A DNA stretch of 64,000 nt from Hoeflea ulvae (lineage in GTDB: Bacteria; Pseudomonadota; Alphaproteobacteria; Rhizobiales; Rhizobiaceae), in contig NZ_JAOVZQ010000001.1 of NCBI RefSeq assembly GCF_026619435.1, positions 1,185,501 to 1,249,500 on the forward strand, in the 5' to 3' direction. A program made the position numbers and the translations under genes. Every line of letters begins with the position of its first letter. Position 1 is the stretch's first letter. Of this stretch, positions 22,729-39,078 are shown piece after piece. The notes beneath the pieces are model-generated. The model had not been told where the DNA came from, made no database searches, and worked only from the letters and a program-made list of their open reading frames with translations.

Positions 22729-22835
22729 GCAGCTTAAACCCCTGTTAACCGTACTTAATTTGAATCCGCTTTCGACGGCCATATTATCTATTCGAAAGCC
22801 GATCCTCGTTATATGTAACTCCAGCACGACGGGAA

Positions 22836-22954
22836 GGAACCCCTTCGTGAAGCGAGTGGGTTCCGACAGGCATGATGCCGAAACGCCGTGACCGGTAAAT
22901 ACATAAGCCCGGTATGTCCCGCTTTAGTTTTGCGTAATCATAAGGGACAATCCT
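22836..22954 (+). promoter_or_regulatory. Structured 5' leader of the first flagellin gene
   Basis: Three stems are visible. GGAACCC (22836-22842) pairs with GGGTTCC (22858-22864) around an inner CTTC/GAAG. GGCATGATGCC (22869-22879) forms a small hairpin. TGTCCC (22915-22920) pairs with GGGACA (22944-22949), which contains the Shine-Dalgarno sequence of the ATG at 22955. The last two recur in the leaders of the other three flagellin genes. An upstream motif CTTAAA..GTTAACC lies at 22733-22750. It probably mediates control of flagellin translation or mRNA stability by FlbT/FlaF (inference). Confidence 0.6.
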
Positions 22955-23926
22955 ATGACAAGTATCATGACAAACGCTTCGGCGATGTCTGCCCTGCAGA
23001 CCCTTCGTTCGATCAATTCCGACATGGAAACCACCCAGGCCAGCATTTCATCCGGTTACAAGGTCAGCTCTGCGGCCGACAACTCCGCCTATTGGTCCAT
23101 CGCCACCACGATGCGTTCCGACAACAAGGCGCTGTCGACCGTTCAGGACGCTCTCGGCCTTGGTGCCGCGAAGGTCGACGTTGCCTATACCGGTATGGAA
23201 TCGGCCATCGACGTGGTCTCCGAAATCAAGGCAAAGCTGGTTGCGGCCCGCGAGCCTGGTGTTGACAAGACCAAGATCGACAAGGAACTGACCGAGCTCA
23301 AGAACCAGCTCCAGTCCGTTGCGGAATCGGCCTCGTTCTCCGGTGAAAACTGGCTCAACAACTCCGAAACAACCGCATCCGGCACCAAGAACATCGTCGG
23401 CGGCTTCAACCGGGATTCGGCCGGACTGGTCAAGTTGACCACGCTTGATGTCAACACCACGTCGACAACGCTGATCGGTGCTGCCAACGAAAGCCTCGGT
23501 ATCCTGACCAAGGACATCGATGCCGATGCGCTGGATGCGAACGGTACCGGTACGGCCCGGAACTACTTCCTGATCGACACCGGTTCGACCACGGGTACGA
23601 CGGCTTCCGGCACGGAAATCTCGCTGACCTCCACGACAACCGATGCCCAGGTCGAGGACATGATCCGCGCGGTGGACTCGATGTTCACCCAGATGACCGA
23701 CGCAGCAGCCAACCTCGGTGCGGTCAACAGCCGGATCTCGATGCAGGAAGACTTCGTCTCCAACCTGCGCGACTCCATCGACAAGGGCGTTGGCCGTCTG
23801 GTGGATGCCGACATGAACGAGGAATCGACCCGCCTGAAGGCTCTGCAGACACAGCAGCAGCTTGGTATTCAGTCGCTGTCGATTGCCAACTCCAGCTCGC
23901 AGAACATCCTGTCGCTGTTCCGTTAA
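22955..23926 (+). CDS. flaA: Flagellin 1
   Basis: Flagellin, the filament subunit, 323 residues. The conserved N-terminal (MTSIMTN, ALQTLRSINSDMETTQ) and C-terminal (KALQTQQQLGIQSLSIANSS, ILSLFR) helices form the filament core, and the short middle domain is typical of rhizobial flagellins. It is exported through the type III gate and has no signal peptide. Products 1 to 3 are nearly identical, and product 4 diverges more. By position this corresponds to flaA of rhizobia, which carries the main subunit there; the letter is positional. It is followed by a strong terminator at 23965. Confidence 0.93.
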   Translation: MTSIMTNASAMSALQTLRSINSDMETTQASISSGYKVSSAADNSAYWSIATTMRSDNKALSTVQDALGLGAAKVDVAYTGMESAIDVVSEIKAKLVAAREPGVDKTKIDKELTELKNQLQSVAESASFSGENWLNNSETTASGTKNIVGGFNRDSAGLVKLTTLDVNTTSTTLIGAANESLGILTKDIDADALDANGTGTARNYFLIDTGSTTGTTASGTEISLTSTTTDAQVEDMIRAVDSMFTQMTDAAANLGAVNSRISMQEDFVSNLRDSIDKGVGRLVDADMNEESTRLKALQTQQQLGIQSLSIANSSSQNILSLFR

Positions 23927-23964
23927 GGGCCACGCCAGACACCAGTTGAGACTGGAACTTGATC

Positions 23965-23995
23965 ACACGCCGGGGAGCAATCCCCGGCGTGTTTT
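23965..23995 (+). terminator. Terminator after flagellin 1
   Basis: A perfect 12-bp stem (ACACGCCGGGGA with TCCCCGGCGTGT, GCAA loop) followed by T residues. The same hairpin occurs after flagellin 2 at 25201, so the 3' flank was duplicated with the gene. Confidence 0.9.
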
Positions 23996-24103
23996 CGTTC
24001 CAGCTCCGTGAAAATCTGCAATCTGGTTTCCCGCTTAAATCTTCGGTAACCATAATCGGTCATTTTGCCGTCAATGAATGACGGGTCGTTGATCGGAGTA
24101 AGC

Positions 24104-24191
24104 CGACGGCGACGAGCATGAAGCCTTGCCGTCGTTGCCGGTTGTTTGAGCCCGGTATGTCCCACGTATCGCTGTCTAAAGGGACACCACC
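24104..24191 (+). promoter_or_regulatory. Structured 5' leader of the second flagellin gene
   Basis: A long imperfect stem links the GCCGACGGCGACG region (24102-24114) with GCCGTCGTTGCCGG (24128-24141), with AGCATGAAGCC (24115-24125) at its tip. Further down TGTCCC (24158-24163) pairs with GGGACA (24181-24186), covering the Shine-Dalgarno of ATG 24192. An upstream motif CTTAAA..GGTAACC is at 24034-24051. The block 24076-24191 is nearly the same as 25313-25426 before flagellin 3. Confidence 0.6.
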
Positions 24192-25163
24192 ATGACTAGT
24201 ATTATGACCAACTCCGCCGCCATGTCGGCGCTCCAGACACTTCGTTCGATCAATTCCGACATGGAAACCACGCAGAGCCGCGTGTCTTCGGGTTATCGCG
24301 TTGAGAGTGCATCCGACAACTCGGCCTATTGGTCCATCGCCACCACCATGCGGTCCGACAACAAGGTTCTGTCGACCGTCAAGGACGCTCTCGGCCTTGG
24401 CGCCGCGAAAGTCGACGTTGCCTATACCGGCATGGAATCGGCCATCGATGTCGTTTCCGAGATCAAGGCCAAGCTGGTTGCTGCCCGCGAGCCCGGCGTC
24501 GACAAGACCAAGATCGACAAGGAACTCACCGAGCTCAAGAACCAGCTGGTCTCGATTGCTGAATCGGCCTCCTTCTCCGGTGAAAACTGGCTCAACAACA
24601 CCGAAACAACCGCATCCGGCACCAAGAACATCGTCGGCGGCTTCAACCGGGATTCGGACGGACTGGTGAGCATCACCACGCTCGACGTCAACACCACGTC
24701 GACGACGCTGATCGGTGCTGCCAATGAAAGCCTCGGCATCCTGACCAAGGACATCGATGCCGATGCGCTGGACGCAAACGGTACCGGTACGGCCCGGAAC
24801 TACTTCCTGATCGACACCGGTTCGACCACGGGTACCACGGCTTCGGGCGATGCAATCGCCTTGACATCCACCACAACCGACGCCGAAGTCGAGGACATGA
24901 TCCGTGCGGTGGACTCGATGTTCACCCAGATGACCGATGCGGCTTCCAATCTCGGTGCGGTCAACAGCCGCGTCTCGATGCAGGAAGACTTCGTCTCCAA
25001 CCTGATGGATTCCATCGACCAGGGCGTCGGCCGTCTGGTGGATGCCGACATGAACGAGGAATCGACCCGGCTCAAGGCGCTGCAGACCCAGCAGCAGCTT
25101 GGCATCCAGTCACTGTCGATCGCCAATTCCAACTCGGAAAGCATCCTGTCGCTCTTCCGTTAA
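24192..25163 (+). CDS. flaB: Flagellin 2
   Basis: Second of four tandem flagellin genes, also 323 residues. It differs from product 1 at scattered positions (for example TQSRVSSGYRVESASDNSA in the N-terminal core) and shares the whole middle block AKLVAAREPGVDKTKIDK. It has its own leader and terminator, so it is probably an independent transcript. In rhizobia minor flagellins such as FlaB join FlaA in a complex filament. The letter is assigned by position. Confidence 0.92.
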   Translation: MTSIMTNSAAMSALQTLRSINSDMETTQSRVSSGYRVESASDNSAYWSIATTMRSDNKVLSTVKDALGLGAAKVDVAYTGMESAIDVVSEIKAKLVAAREPGVDKTKIDKELTELKNQLVSIAESASFSGENWLNNTETTASGTKNIVGGFNRDSDGLVSITTLDVNTTSTTLIGAANESLGILTKDIDADALDANGTGTARNYFLIDTGSTTGTTASGDAIALTSTTTDAEVEDMIRAVDSMFTQMTDAASNLGAVNSRVSMQEDFVSNLMDSIDQGVGRLVDADMNEESTRLKALQTQQQLGIQSLSIANSNSESILSLFR

Positions 25164-25200
25164 GAGCGAGCTCAGGCGCCAGTTGAGACTGGATTTCATC

Positions 25201-25231
25201 ACACGCCGGGGAGCAATCCCCGGCGTGTTTT
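25201..25231 (+). terminator. Terminator after flagellin 2
   Basis: The same 12-bp ACACGCCGGGGA/TCCCCGGCGTGT hairpin and T tract as after flagellin 1. A smaller CCAGT/ACTGG hairpin precedes both copies by about 15-20 bases. Confidence 0.9.
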
Positions 25232-25312
25232 GGTTTGGTGAAAAGATAATTAATGCAAATGGTTGGCGGTTAAAACTTCTGTAACCTTAACGCTTCATTC
25301 TCCTGCCTATGA

Positions 25313-25426
25313 AGTGACGGGTCGCTGATCGGGGTAAGCCGGTGGCGACGGGCATGAAGCCTTGCCGTCATTGCCGGTTTTTGAGCCCGGCATGTCCCAC
25401 GTATCGCTGTCTAAAGGGACACCACA
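25313..25426 (+). promoter_or_regulatory. Structured 5' leader of the third flagellin gene
   Basis: CCGGTGGCGACGG (25339-25351) can pair with CCGTCATTGCCGG (25364-25376) through several G-U pairs, with GGCATGAAGCC (25351-25361) at the tip. TGTCCC (25393-25398) pairs with GGGACA (25416-25421), which includes the Shine-Dalgarno of ATG 25427. The upstream motif GTTAAA..TGTAACC is at 25269-25286. It is a near copy of the leader at 24076-24191, with several changes that keep pairing. Confidence 0.6.
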
Positions 25427-26398
25427 ATGACAAGCATCATGACCAACTCCGCCGCGATGTCGGCGCTCCAGACCCTTCGTTCGATCAATTCCGAAATGGA
25501 GACCACGCAAAGCCGTGTCTCGTCGGGCTATCGCGTTGAGGATGCGTCTGACAACTCGGCCTATTGGTCCATTGCCACCACCATGCGGTCCGACAACAAG
25601 GCGTTGTCGACGGTCAAGGACGCGCTCGGTCTCGGCGCCGCCAAGGTCGACGTTGCCTATACCGGCATGGAATCGGCCATCGACGTGGTGTCCGAAATCA
25701 AGGCCAAGCTGGTTGCGGCCCGCGAACCCGGCGTCGACAAGACCAAGATCGACAAGGAACTGACCGAGCTCAAGAACCAGCTGGTCTCCATTGCCGAATC
25801 GGCCTCCTTCTCCGGTGAAAACTGGCTCAACAACACCGAAACAACCGCATCCGGCACCAAGAACATCGTTGGCGGCTTCAACCGGGATTCGGCCGGACTG
25901 GTGAGCATCACGACGCTGGACGTCAACACCACGTCGACGACGCTGATCGGTGCTGCCAATGAAAGCCTCGGCATTCTGACCAAGGACATCGATGCCGATG
26001 CACTGGACGCAAACGGAACCGGCACTGCCCGGAACTACTTCCTGATCGACACCGGTGCGACCACCGGTACGTCGGCTGCCGGCACGGAAATCGCGCTGAC
26101 CTCAACGACAACCGATGCCCAGGTCGAAGACATGATCCGCGCGGTGGACTCGATGTTCACCCAGATGACCGATGCGGCTTCCAATCTCGGTGCGGTCAAC
26201 AGCCGTGTCTCGATGCAGGAAGACTTCGTCTCCAACCTGATGGACTCCATCGACAAGGGGGTCGGCCGTCTGGTGGACGCCGACATGAACGAGGAATCGA
26301 CCCGGCTCAAGGCGCTGCAGACCCAGCAGCAGCTCGGCATTCAGTCACTGTCGATCGCCAATTCCAGCTCGGAGAGCATTCTGTCGCTCTTCCGTTAA
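25427..26398 (+). CDS. Flagellin 3
   Basis: Third flagellin, 323 residues, closest to flagellin 2 over the N-terminal half (TQSRVSSGYRVEDASDNSA). Its variable loop (GATTGTSAAGTEI) differs slightly from those of products 1 and 2. In S. meliloti the gene at this place is flaD, but the rhizobial letters are not transferable without a tree, so no symbol is given. Own leader and terminator. Confidence 0.92.
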   Translation: MTSIMTNSAAMSALQTLRSINSEMETTQSRVSSGYRVEDASDNSAYWSIATTMRSDNKALSTVKDALGLGAAKVDVAYTGMESAIDVVSEIKAKLVAAREPGVDKTKIDKELTELKNQLVSIAESASFSGENWLNNTETTASGTKNIVGGFNRDSAGLVSITTLDVNTTSTTLIGAANESLGILTKDIDADALDANGTGTARNYFLIDTGATTGTSAAGTEIALTSTTTDAQVEDMIRAVDSMFTQMTDAASNLGAVNSRVSMQEDFVSNLMDSIDKGVGRLVDADMNEESTRLKALQTQQQLGIQSLSIANSSSESILSLFR

Positions 26399-26452
26399 GA
26401 TCGCGCCGGACCGGAACCGCCTTCGGGTGGTTCCTGATCAGCCGAACGAATA

Positions 26453-26484
26453 CAGGCCGCATCGGAAACGATGCGGCCTGTTTG
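26453..26484 (+). terminator. Terminator after flagellin 3
   Basis: A 12-bp stem (CAGGCCGCATCG with CGATGCGGCCTG, GAAA loop) followed by TTTGCG. Another hairpin, GGAACCGCC/GGTGGTTCC with a TTCG loop, lies just upstream at 26413-26434. The terminator is different from those after flagellins 1 and 2. The rest of the 319-base gap to flagellin 4 holds the leader and upstream motif of that gene. Confidence 0.85.
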
Positions 26485-26640
26485 CGTTGGCGCGCGCGGC
26501 CCACCGGATATCGCACCGGTTTTTTTGCCCGATCGAACTCTATTCCATTAACAAGGGGTTGAATTAACTGTTGGTTAACCATAAGCGTTTACCTCTTAGT
26601 TACCAACGGTGAACCGGAACGCATGGGCAATGTCTGCTCC

Positions 26641-26717
26641 GGGTTGCATGATGCAAGATCACCGTAACCGGAACACACAGGCCGGTATGTCCCTGGGCAA
26701 TTTATGGGGCACTTATT
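26641..26717 (+). promoter_or_regulatory. Structured 5' leader of the fourth flagellin gene
   Basis: TGCATGATGCA (26645-26655) takes the place of the GGCATGATGCC hairpin of flagellin 1, with the outer pair changed from G-C to T-A. TGTCCC (26688-26693) pairs with GGGGCA (26706-26711), replacing an A-U by a G-U pair, again over the ribosome-binding site of ATG 26718. The upstream motif ATTAAC..GGTTAACC is at 26563-26580. This is the most diverged leader yet keeps both structures. Confidence 0.55.
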
Positions 26718-27692
26718 ATGACCAGTATTATGACCAATGCAGCCGCTATGGCCGCGCTGCAGACACTTCGTACAATCAATACCGATATGGAAACGACCCA
26801 GGCGCGGGTGTCTTCGGGCTTCCGCGTCGAGAATGCCGGCGACAATGCGGCCTATTGGTCGATCGCAACGACCATGCGATCGGACAACAAGGCACTTTCA
26901 ACCGTGAAAGACGCTCTTGGCCTCGGCGCCGCAAAGGTGGACATCGCCTACACCGCGATGAACAGTTCCATTGACGTGATCTCTGAAATCAAGGCCAAGC
27001 TGGTTGCGGCTCGCGAGCCTGGTGTTGACAAGACCAAGATCGACAAGGAGCTCACCGAGCTCAAGAACCAGCTTCAGTCGATCGCCGAATCAGCCTCGTT
27101 CTCCGGTGAGAACTGGCTCAACAACTCGGCCCTCACGGCAGCCGGTACCAAATCGATCGTCGGCGGCTTCAACCGCGACGTCAACGGTCTGGTGACGATC
27201 ACCACGCTCGATGTCAACGTCAGCAGCATCACCATGATCGGTGAGAACAACGAGAGCCTTGGCATCTTGACCAAGGATATCAATGCCGATGCGCTGGATG
27301 CGAACGCTACCGGTACTGCCCGGAACTACTTCCTCATCGACACCGGTTCCACAACCGGCACCAGCGCTGCCGGCGCGGCAATCACGCTGACTGCGACGAC
27401 ATCGGACGCCGAGGTGGAAGACATGGTTCGGGTGGTTGATTCCATCCTCAGCCAGATGACCGATGCCGCTTCCAATCTGGGTGCGATCAGCAAGCGTGTC
27501 TCGATGCAGGAAGACTTTGTCGCCAATCTGATGGATTCCATCGACAAGGGGGTCGGCCGCTTGGTTGACGCCGACATGAACGAGGAGTCGACCCGGTTGA
27601 AGGCGCTGCAGACTCAGCAGCAGCTGGGCATCCAGTCTCTCTCGATCGCCAACTCCAATTCGCAAAACATCCTGTCGCTCTTCCAGCAGTAA
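26718..27692 (+). CDS. Flagellin 4 (divergent paralog)
   Basis: Fourth flagellin, 324 residues, clearly more diverged (MTNAAAMAALQTLRTINTD, STTGTSAAGAAITLTATTSD, C-terminus LFQQ). It keeps the family core AKLVAAREPGVDKTKIDK and VDADMNEESTRLKALQTQQQ. It probably corresponds to the last flagellin of the rhizobial array (flaC position in S. meliloti). The longer frame at 26609 in another phase is not coding. Confidence 0.9.
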   Translation: MTSIMTNAAAMAALQTLRTINTDMETTQARVSSGFRVENAGDNAAYWSIATTMRSDNKALSTVKDALGLGAAKVDIAYTAMNSSIDVISEIKAKLVAAREPGVDKTKIDKELTELKNQLQSIAESASFSGENWLNNSALTAAGTKSIVGGFNRDVNGLVTITTLDVNVSSITMIGENNESLGILTKDINADALDANATGTARNYFLIDTGSTTGTSAAGAAITLTATTSDAEVEDMVRVVDSILSQMTDAASNLGAISKRVSMQEDFVANLMDSIDKGVGRLVDADMNEESTRLKALQTQQQLGIQSLSIANSNSQNILSLFQQ

Positions 27693-38284: not shown

Positions 38285-38632
38285 ATGTACCAGTTTTCCT
38301 ATGCGGATGTTCAGGAGGATGGTGTTGCCGAAGCGCGCGAACGCGAGCGCGAAGCGATCAATCATTCCATTACCCTGTTGACTGCAGCCAAAGCCAATGG
38401 CCTCGAATCCCGCGATGCAATCGAAGCGGTCTACTTCGTCAGCCGGCTTTGGGTTCGATTTGTCGAGGACCTCGCGGCGCCTGACAACGAATTGGCCGAA
38501 GAGCTTCGCGCGAACCTCATCTCCATAGGGATTTGGGTCATCAAGGAAGCCGAACGCATCCGGATGCGCCAGTCGGACAATTTCCAGGGCATCATCGACA
38601 TCTCGATCATCATCAGGGACGGGCTGAAATGA
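38285..38632 (+). CDS. flaF: FlaF, flagellin synthesis regulator
   Basis: FlaF works against or with FlbT in controlling flagellin synthesis and secretion in Caulobacter and relatives. The 115-residue helical protein begins [20 protein letters not shown] and has the conserved LITAAKANG-type segment ([19 protein letters not shown]). The stop overlaps the flbT start (ATGA). It has no membrane segment or signal. Confidence 0.88.
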
Positions 38633-39078
38633 AAAGTTCACTTCGCATTTCGCTCAAGGCCGGCGAACGCATCTTCATCAACGGAGCCGTGCTTCGGGTC
38701 GATCGCAAGGTCGCGCTGGAATTTCTCAACGACGTGACGTTCCTGCTGGAAAACCACGTGCTGCAGCCTGAGCAGGCGACAACGCCGCTCAAGCAGCTCT
38801 ATTTCATCGTTCAGATGATGCTGATCAACCCCGAAGGCGCCGAGCAGTCGATGGGCATGTTCCGCAAGTCCGTGGTCATGCTACTGACCTGCTTCAAGGA
38901 CGAGGAAGTGCTGGTCGAACTCAAGCACATCGACGGCATGGTCACCCAGGGCCGCGCCTTCGAGGCGCTCAAGGCGATCCGAGCGCTTTACCCGGTTGAA
39001 GAGCAGATCATCAACTCGTCGGCGATGCCTGCCGGCGTCATCGACAAGATTCGCAAGGAGCTGGCCCCATGGTCGTAG
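38629..39078 (+). CDS. flbT: FlbT, flagellin mRNA regulator
   Basis: In Caulobacter FlbT binds the 5' leader of flagellin mRNA and promotes its decay until the hook is finished; other alphaproteobacteria use it with varying sign. The 149-residue product has the family core ([19 protein letters not shown] and [16 protein letters not shown]). ATG 38629 overlaps flaF and is preferred over a longer frame from 38533. The four flagellin leaders at 22836-26717 carry conserved hairpins that are plausible targets. Its stop overlaps flgD by 10 bases. Confidence 0.9.

Follow-up and report, generated by a model that had tools for sequence, protein, structure and literature searches.

What decides whether the mRNAs of four adjacent flagellin genes of Hoeflea ulvae (Rhizobiales; Rhizobiaceae) are translated? 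These genes lie in a 64,000-nucleotide (nt) stretch of the genome (contig NZ_JAOVZQ010000001.1, positions 1,185,501 to 1,249,500 of the forward strand; hereafter the window, numbered from its first letter), and a first-pass annotation of this stretch had proposed that each of the four leaders can hide its Shine-Dalgarno (SD) sequence in a hairpin, as a translational switch on which FlbT would act. We find that this hairpin, here called H2, is the last of three consecutive hairpins, HA, H1 and H2, which form a leader structure whose reality is near certain. The conserved SD-occluding leader is thus well supported, while the switch itself and the action of FlbT on it are what we infer and weigh below.

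The SD sequences of the four flagellin mRNAs

The four genes, all on the forward strand, span positions 22955..23926, 24192..25163 and 25427..26398 (323 amino acids each) and 26718..27692 (324 amino acids). Some 30-40 nt 5′ of the ATG of each one stands the motif TGTCCC, which in the RNA can pair with the SD sequence, the latter being the 3′ arm of H2. The eight arms are found exactly where they had been placed by the first-pass annotation: UGUCCC at 22915-22920 and GGGACA at 22944-22949 for flagellin 1 (H2 at 22915..22949, with a loop of 23 nt), 24158-24163 and 24181-24186 for flagellin 2 (24158..24186, 17 nt), 25393-25398 and 25416-25421 for flagellin 3 (25393..25421, 17 nt), and 26688-26693 and 26706-26711 for flagellin 4 (26688..26711, 12 nt). 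The loops indeed differ in length, as had been noticed, and in flagellin 4, where the 3′ arm reads GGGGCA, the stem is retained through one U-G pair. The H2 loop of the flagellin 4 orthologues also retains, in several Hoeflea genomes, the SD-like string GGGCAA, located at 26695-26700 in the window.

The minimum-free-energy fold contains H2 in all four window leaders. The folding energy of the whole leaders is nevertheless ordinary when compared with dinucleotide shuffles (z of 0.09, 0.98, -1.04 and 0.21), and H2 is not discoverable from energy alone. The SD bases are predicted to be unpaired with probabilities of 0.10, 0.06, 0.004 and 0.004 for flagellins 1 to 4, while the median is 0.32 in a comparison set of 24 further open reading frames (ORFs) of the window that bear an SD, picked by a simple rule; two of these are at or below 0.15. 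Over 80 representative leaders, the SD core is unpaired with a mean probability of 0.07 (75 of the 80 have a scorable core), the H2 arm pairs with the SD region at a probability above 0.5 in 58, and the H2 stem score is at least 5 in 59. These folding predictions make it likely that the SD sequences of the four flagellin mRNAs are occluded by H2. The window flagellins are paralogues, genes 2-4 being 82-92% identical to gene 1, so that their leaders are not four independent observations and the claim has to be carried by comparative evidence. Two other flagellin genes of the same genome (C1:580907 and C1:3862333) are devoid of the element, both when their upstream DNA is read by eye and in searches with the model of the leader.

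A leader made of three hairpins

A rule based on the start motif yielded 168 flagellin leaders from 76 loci and the window. TGTCCC is present in 120 of them, it is followed by GGG(A/G)CA near the ATG in 113, and a CCGG...CCGG pair occurs in 135. Alignment of the 44 leaders left after thinning at 85% identity reveals three hairpins in a constant order, HA being followed by H1, then, after at most one base, by H2 and the ATG. The consensus arms are N-G-C-AUGAN-G-C-N′ for HA, N-CCGG...CCGG-N′ for H1 and UGUCCC...GGGRCA for H2; the H2 stem and the cores of HA and H1 are also predicted from these 44 leaders by RNAalifold when no structure is given. The first-pass annotation was right about the SD hairpin, and had missed HA and H1, which hold the strongest covariation, as well as the spread of the leader across the order.

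In the window, HA lies at 22869..22879 in flagellin 1 (GGC-AUGAU-GCC), 24115..24125 in flagellin 2 (a copy with 2 base pairs), 25351..25361 in flagellin 3 (GGC-AUGAA-GCC) and 26644..26656 in flagellin 4 (UUGC-AUGAU-GCAA). H1 occupies 22891..22913 in flagellin 1, with ACCGG at 22891-22895 and CCGGU at 22909-22913, and is absent from the minimum-free-energy fold of that leader; it is found at 24137..24156 (GCCGG/CCGGU), 25373..25391 (GCCGG/CCGGC) and 26667..26686 (ACCGG/CCGGU) in flagellins 2, 3 and 4, respectively. By eye, a further inverted repeat of variable sequence seems to stand just 5′ of HA (22836-22864, 24085-24113 and 26614-26642), an example being the GGAACCC...GGGTTCC of flagellin 1.

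Evolutionary evidence for the structure

In the 44-row alignment, 87.4% of the cells pair, compared with 32.8-47.0% when the arms are slid, and 18 double-change cells are counted against 8.8 in shuffles (0/500 as high). A second alignment was fitted by the model and is biased toward the structure; it holds the best 150 of 161 matches from 97 chosen sources, of which 148 are distinct and counted and 137 served for the tree-based nulls. Here 90.9% of the cells of the 150 matches pair (30.7-47.7% when slid), two-sided changes are seen in 11 of the 16 pairs, and 77 double-change cells are counted against 18.9 (0/500). Against tree-based nulls written for this analysis, the outer HA pair (E of about 0.003) and the H1 pair adjoining the CCGG (E of 5e-5 to 3e-4) are significant in the 137 rows. 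A structure-blind alignment was also built from 80 rows, obtained by thinning 313 pooled leaders at 87% (L193 was excluded before pooling; L176 and L177 were pooled and not kept), and there the outer HA pair is again significant, with E values of 0.016 and 0.002. Covariation is significant for HA on two alignments, and for H1 on the model-fitted one only. The covariation in relatives that had been put forward as a test of the hairpin is therefore found in the leader, in HA and H1, and it is a swap test that backs the SD stem itself.

Both arms of H2 are nearly invariant, which leaves little variation to measure, and H2 appears to be maintained mostly through sequence conservation. The evolutionary support for this stem comes from the double-change counts and from swaps, not pair by pair. 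The swap test is alignment-free and compares the fit of each 5′ arm to its own SD with its fit to the SDs of the other leaders; six of ten diverged leaders were added to it, L261, L263, L265 and L268 being omitted as near-duplicates. Over 86 leaders, the value is -9.59 kcal/mol with the own SD and -8.78 kcal/mol with the others (0/10000). The same test gives 4/10000 for the 33 non-consensus arms and 8/10000 for 20 hand-picked leaders of distant lineages, this last subset being the one in which relatedness is taken into account. These results support a co-evolution of H2 with its SD. A helix by which the region 5′ of H1 would close on the start codon scored 1/3000 over 80 leaders and 596/3000 in the 23 not starting with ATGAC.

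Natural variants illustrate how the arms can be rebuilt. In genome G307 (L262 and L263, missed by the model), H2 reads GUCUUUUC/GGAAAGAC, two conserved C-G pairs having become U-A in a longer stem, and close forms of this rebuilt H2 are carried by L261 and L265, from the same genus (family f18). H1 is GCCGAC/GUCGGC in L262 and L265, and GCUGCU/AGCAGC in L191, which comes from a 1.5-Mb genome of the family. In five leaders of one other genus of the family (L183, L186, L189, L267 and L268), the arm adjoining H1 fits the SD poorly. By eye, three of these (L183, L267 and L268; the last two were folded) have instead a closer CCU or UACCU opposite the SD, which would have the same effect with other letters.

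Distribution of the leader

In the family sample, 116 of 151 genomes match the model. In the order sample 50 of 249 do, and a flagellin is present in 189 of these 249, including all 50 module-positive ones (lists compared by eye). In the class sample two of 289 genomes match, namely this one and one outside the order with a weak hit of 26 bits. A flagellin start lies 3′ of the module in 60 of 60 loci (L096-L099 and L104-L159), 59 of them by rule; in L111 the leader is intact and the reading frame departs from flagellin after about 25 residues, through a frameshift or an assembly error.

Sixty further places were chosen from the family and order match listings, about half of them outside the family, and 57 show a flagellin-like start by eye. 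The three exceptions differ in kind. L193 (25.8 bits) is probably a chance match. L176, from genome G085, has a good copy of the leader followed by a short ORF with flagellin-like scraps (AYWSI) and no Pfam match. In L177 the module stands upstream of a gene for a methyl-accepting chemotaxis protein, an arrangement that a second genome of its genus shares with a weaker SD arm. The chemoreceptor genes with the HA-H1 leader in two genomes of one genus are L281:152-2044 (G090) and L282:152-2023 (G124); there the leader is borrowed by a non-flagellin gene. The four weak model matches within the H. ulvae genome itself (L100-L103) have no flagellin. The one in L100, fifth of the matches in this genome (30.8 bits, E 4e-5), falls inside a coding sequence resembling murG by eye and was rejected as a chance match; since L193 appears to be another, an E value of about 1e-5 from this model is unsafe alone.

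Promoters and extent of the transcript

CtrA-type boxes, TTAA-N7-TTAA, precede the four genes at 22734..22748 (flagellin 1, exact), 24035..24049 (flagellin 2, one mismatch), 25270..25284 (flagellin 3, one mismatch, with a second one-mismatch site at 25239) and 26564..26578 (flagellin 4, exact). For 159 of 165 leaders the 350 nt upstream contain such a box with at most one mismatch (22 of 165 after shuffling), and its start lies at a median of 156 nt 5′ of the ATG. In the window the GCATGA of HA is 72-85 nt 5′ of the ATG, and the box 80-135 nt upstream of HA. Transcription from CtrA-activated promoters starts about 30-45 nt 3′ of the box; from such a start HA, H1 and H2 would all be in the RNA, which suggests that the leader element is transcribed. 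A start inside the stem, the objection raised when the hairpin was first proposed, seems unlikely with a box at this distance. CtrA motifs are reported at flaA, flaC and flaD of Sinorhizobium meliloti (PMC3616915).

FlbT subfamilies and flagellar systems

As first noticed, flaF and flbT are encoded in the window, at 38285..38632 (PF07309, E 5.9e-33) and 38629..39078 (PF07378, E 1.1e-42) of the forward strand. The FlbT is a candidate trans-acting partner of the leader. A tree of 40 FlbT sequences has two clades, with 12 and 28 members (support 1.0 and 0.36 when rooted at the midpoint), and we distinguish a type I, with the motif VITN...REKDIL, from a type II, whose motif ends in ...RQLYF and to which the window protein belongs; three sequences outside the motif rule were assigned by the tree. 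Type II is present in 25 of 25 sampled module-positive genomes, and ten sampled module-negative genomes comprise seven with type I and three with type II (G307, G364 and G342). The leaders read in G307 and G364 are diverged forms of the module.

Eleven module-positive genomes have two FlbT genes. Both copies were fetched for five of them, which carry both types, and there the module shares its contig with the type II gene; in G035, where both genes are on one chromosome, the module is about 12 kb away from the type II gene and 3.8 Mb away from the type I gene. Twenty other flagellin upstream regions were read by eye, ten with the module or a diverged form (L261-L269 and L280) and ten without, the latter including all seven whose protein starts with MPVI (L273-L279). 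Rhizobiales are reported to carry 'lateral' and 'subpolar' flagella, with lateral ones only in Hoeflea and the Rhizobiaceae (PMC6406911). By inference, type II FlbT and the leader belong to the lateral flagellar system. In each of two dual-system genomes (7-8 Mb), two neighbouring flagellins carry the leader (L139 and L162; L150 and L164).

A proposed lock on the SD sequence and its possible key

The sign of FlbT action differs among reports. One review credits FlbT with the translational induction of LafA1 and LafA2, which are lateral flagellins of Bradyrhizobium diazoefficiens (PMC8429497), and another review has it that FlbT enables flagellin production in Brucella (PMC8781033). The first-pass annotation called on Caulobacter, which implies a repressor, and given the induction of the Bradyrhizobium lateral flagellins this sign may be wrong here. 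A locked SD together with a translational inducer fits a default-off lock opened by FlbT, and HA and H1, which covary without touching the SD, are a natural candidate for the binding site.

The reading that we favour, with moderate confidence, is thus that of a default-off lock on the SD of lateral-type flagellin mRNAs, which FlbT from the same cluster, with FlaF, opens or bypasses. A CtrA-type promoter would drive each flagellin of the presumed lateral system, and the transcript would begin with about 110-130 nt of leader, ending in HA-H1-H2. In the resting state H2 would cover the SD and the flagellin would stay untranslated; FlbT, with FlaF, would recognise the HA/H1 part and open or bypass H2, so that flagellin would be made when the export apparatus can use the product. 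In this scheme the place where transcription begins, the lack of translation by default in the cell, and the recognition and opening by FlbT are deduced parts, and FlbT is a plausible key. More tentatively, and with rather less conviction, HA-H1-H2 could be seen as an uncatalogued, order-wide RNA family acting as the receptor of a lateral-type FlbT that unlocks it as an activator, a portable module for assembly-coupled translation that a chemoreceptor gene has borrowed.

Several results weigh against the FlbT-opened lock. No H2 pair is singly significant against the tree nulls on either alignment, neither H1 nor H2 pairs are significant on the structure-blind one (80 rows), and the H2 helix sum (137 rows) is equalled by four of 80 simulations under null A and by none of 80 under null B. 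In the swap test, leaders with consensus arms give no signal, and for just five of the 33 non-consensus arms is the own SD among the best five of 86. An in-place H2 is weak or missing in L027_3727, L107_+2823, L267 and L280. FlbT is encoded in 49 of the 50 module-positive genomes of the order sample (lists compared by eye) and also in 126 of the 199 module-negative ones; being general in flagellated members of the order, it makes the co-occurrence of leader and FlbT a weak argument, and common descent also explains a link between two elements of one gene cluster. Finally, a competing stem through an alternative anti-SD inside the H2 loop, which can be made out by eye for flagellins 2 and 3, is not general (equalled in 19 of 200 shuffles). 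A two-state RNA switch is thus unsupported, for want of a second conserved inner stem; an opening driven by a protein needs none.

Alternatively, the leader could act as a fixed brake, or stabilise the mRNA, and so set the flagellin level with no dedicated regulator; the lack of a conserved alternative inner stem and the ordinary folding energy of the whole leaders speak for this. The conserved AUGAN loop, the CCGG core and two further covarying hairpins exceed a brake's needs, however, and the occurrence of the leader on a single kind of flagellin, with a chemoreceptor as a rare exception, suggests a shared regulator. We regard the brake as rather unlikely.

Another view keeps FlbT and turns its sign: as in Caulobacter, where FlbT binds flagellin 5′ untranslated regions and represses (reviewed in PMC3930126 and PMC4347634), it would bind the leader and stabilise the SD hairpin for as long as the hook-basal body is incomplete. 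The NCBI family model that fits the window FlbT above its cut-off, NF001995, carries the repressor name, and both facts count against an activator. The two reviews cited for induction in Bradyrhizobium (PMC8429497) and for flagellin production in Brucella (PMC8781033) nevertheless speak against repression, which we hold to be quite unlikely in this system.

Could the SD hairpin be opened by something other than FlbT? We think this quite unlikely too. SD-occluding hairpins are a common substrate for control by small RNAs (sRNAs; with Hfq), by temperature and by ribosome standby binding. No Rfam 15 family reaches its gathering score in the window, though, and RNA thermometer families are absent from its Rfam matches; scans at permissive settings, which covered part of the window and 20 loci, returned below-gathering, implausible-looking matches only. 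Moreover, the G-C-rich H2 of the window is ill-suited to a thermometer working in the growth range, and the H2 loops vary between lineages by eye, against a single sRNA seed. Last, conservation at the DNA level, as inverted repeats bound by a transcription factor, would account for the CCGG...CCGG palindrome and for the high sequence conservation, and is extremely unlikely given the fixed position of the module relative to the SD and the start codon, the exchange of H1 for other complementary arms in L191 and L262, and the location of HA 3′ of the CtrA-type box.

Comparison with known systems

The flg-Rhizobiales RNA (RF01736), reported from the same order, is likewise a conserved RNA with three hairpins that belongs to flagellar genes (PMC3765529). 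It was rejected as an identity for the leader: its model has no match in the H. ulvae genome, and it sits before flgF, not before a flagellin. Matches to it were found in 18 of 150 order genomes, three of them above the cut-off; of 12 loci, seven were scanned and all seven have flgF downstream (FlgF model TIGR02490), whereas the present module precedes flagellins. Its hairpins carry TTGGGAG motifs by eye, unlike those of our module, and in G035 its distance to the type I FlbT gene is about 21 kb, the present module being the one near type II.

The flagellin 5′ untranslated region bound by FlbT in Caulobacter crescentus shares with our leader its place before a flagellin, post-transcriptional control and FlbT as the candidate protein, a likeness drawn from reviews. 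The reported sign is repression there and induction for lateral flagellins, and the model search of the 289 class genomes gave just the one weak match outside the order. Flagellin mRNA control by CsrA-FliW in Campylobacter and Bacillus is also post-transcriptional and works through an RNA-binding protein, and FlaF-FlbT has been proposed as a possible analogue (PMC4894983). A CsrA gene was not found in the H. ulvae genome by a search that was positive in three of 14 control genomes.

No description of an HA-H1-H2 leader was found in the open-access papers searched, among which the primary work on FlbT is not included. Leaders that occlude the SD are a known kind, and so is the control of flagellin mRNA by FlbT; this leader is a new one among them, possibly with a new sign of control. 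The mechanism of FlbT on flagellin mRNA has been called unclear, and contrary signs have been proposed for Caulobacter and for Brucella (PMC4347634). As a defined RNA whose arms are named, which varies naturally and whose system boundary is clear, the leader described here makes this question directly testable in laboratory rhizobia, and it adds a conserved, uncatalogued structured leader for flagellins across a large part of an order.

Neighbouring features of the window

Strong and nearly identical hairpins followed by T runs (ACGCCGGGGAGCAATCCCCGGCGTGTTTT) were seen by eye 3′ of flagellins 1 and 2, at 23967-23995 and 25203-25231. They are likely terminators, in which case separate promoters probably serve flagellins 2 and 3.

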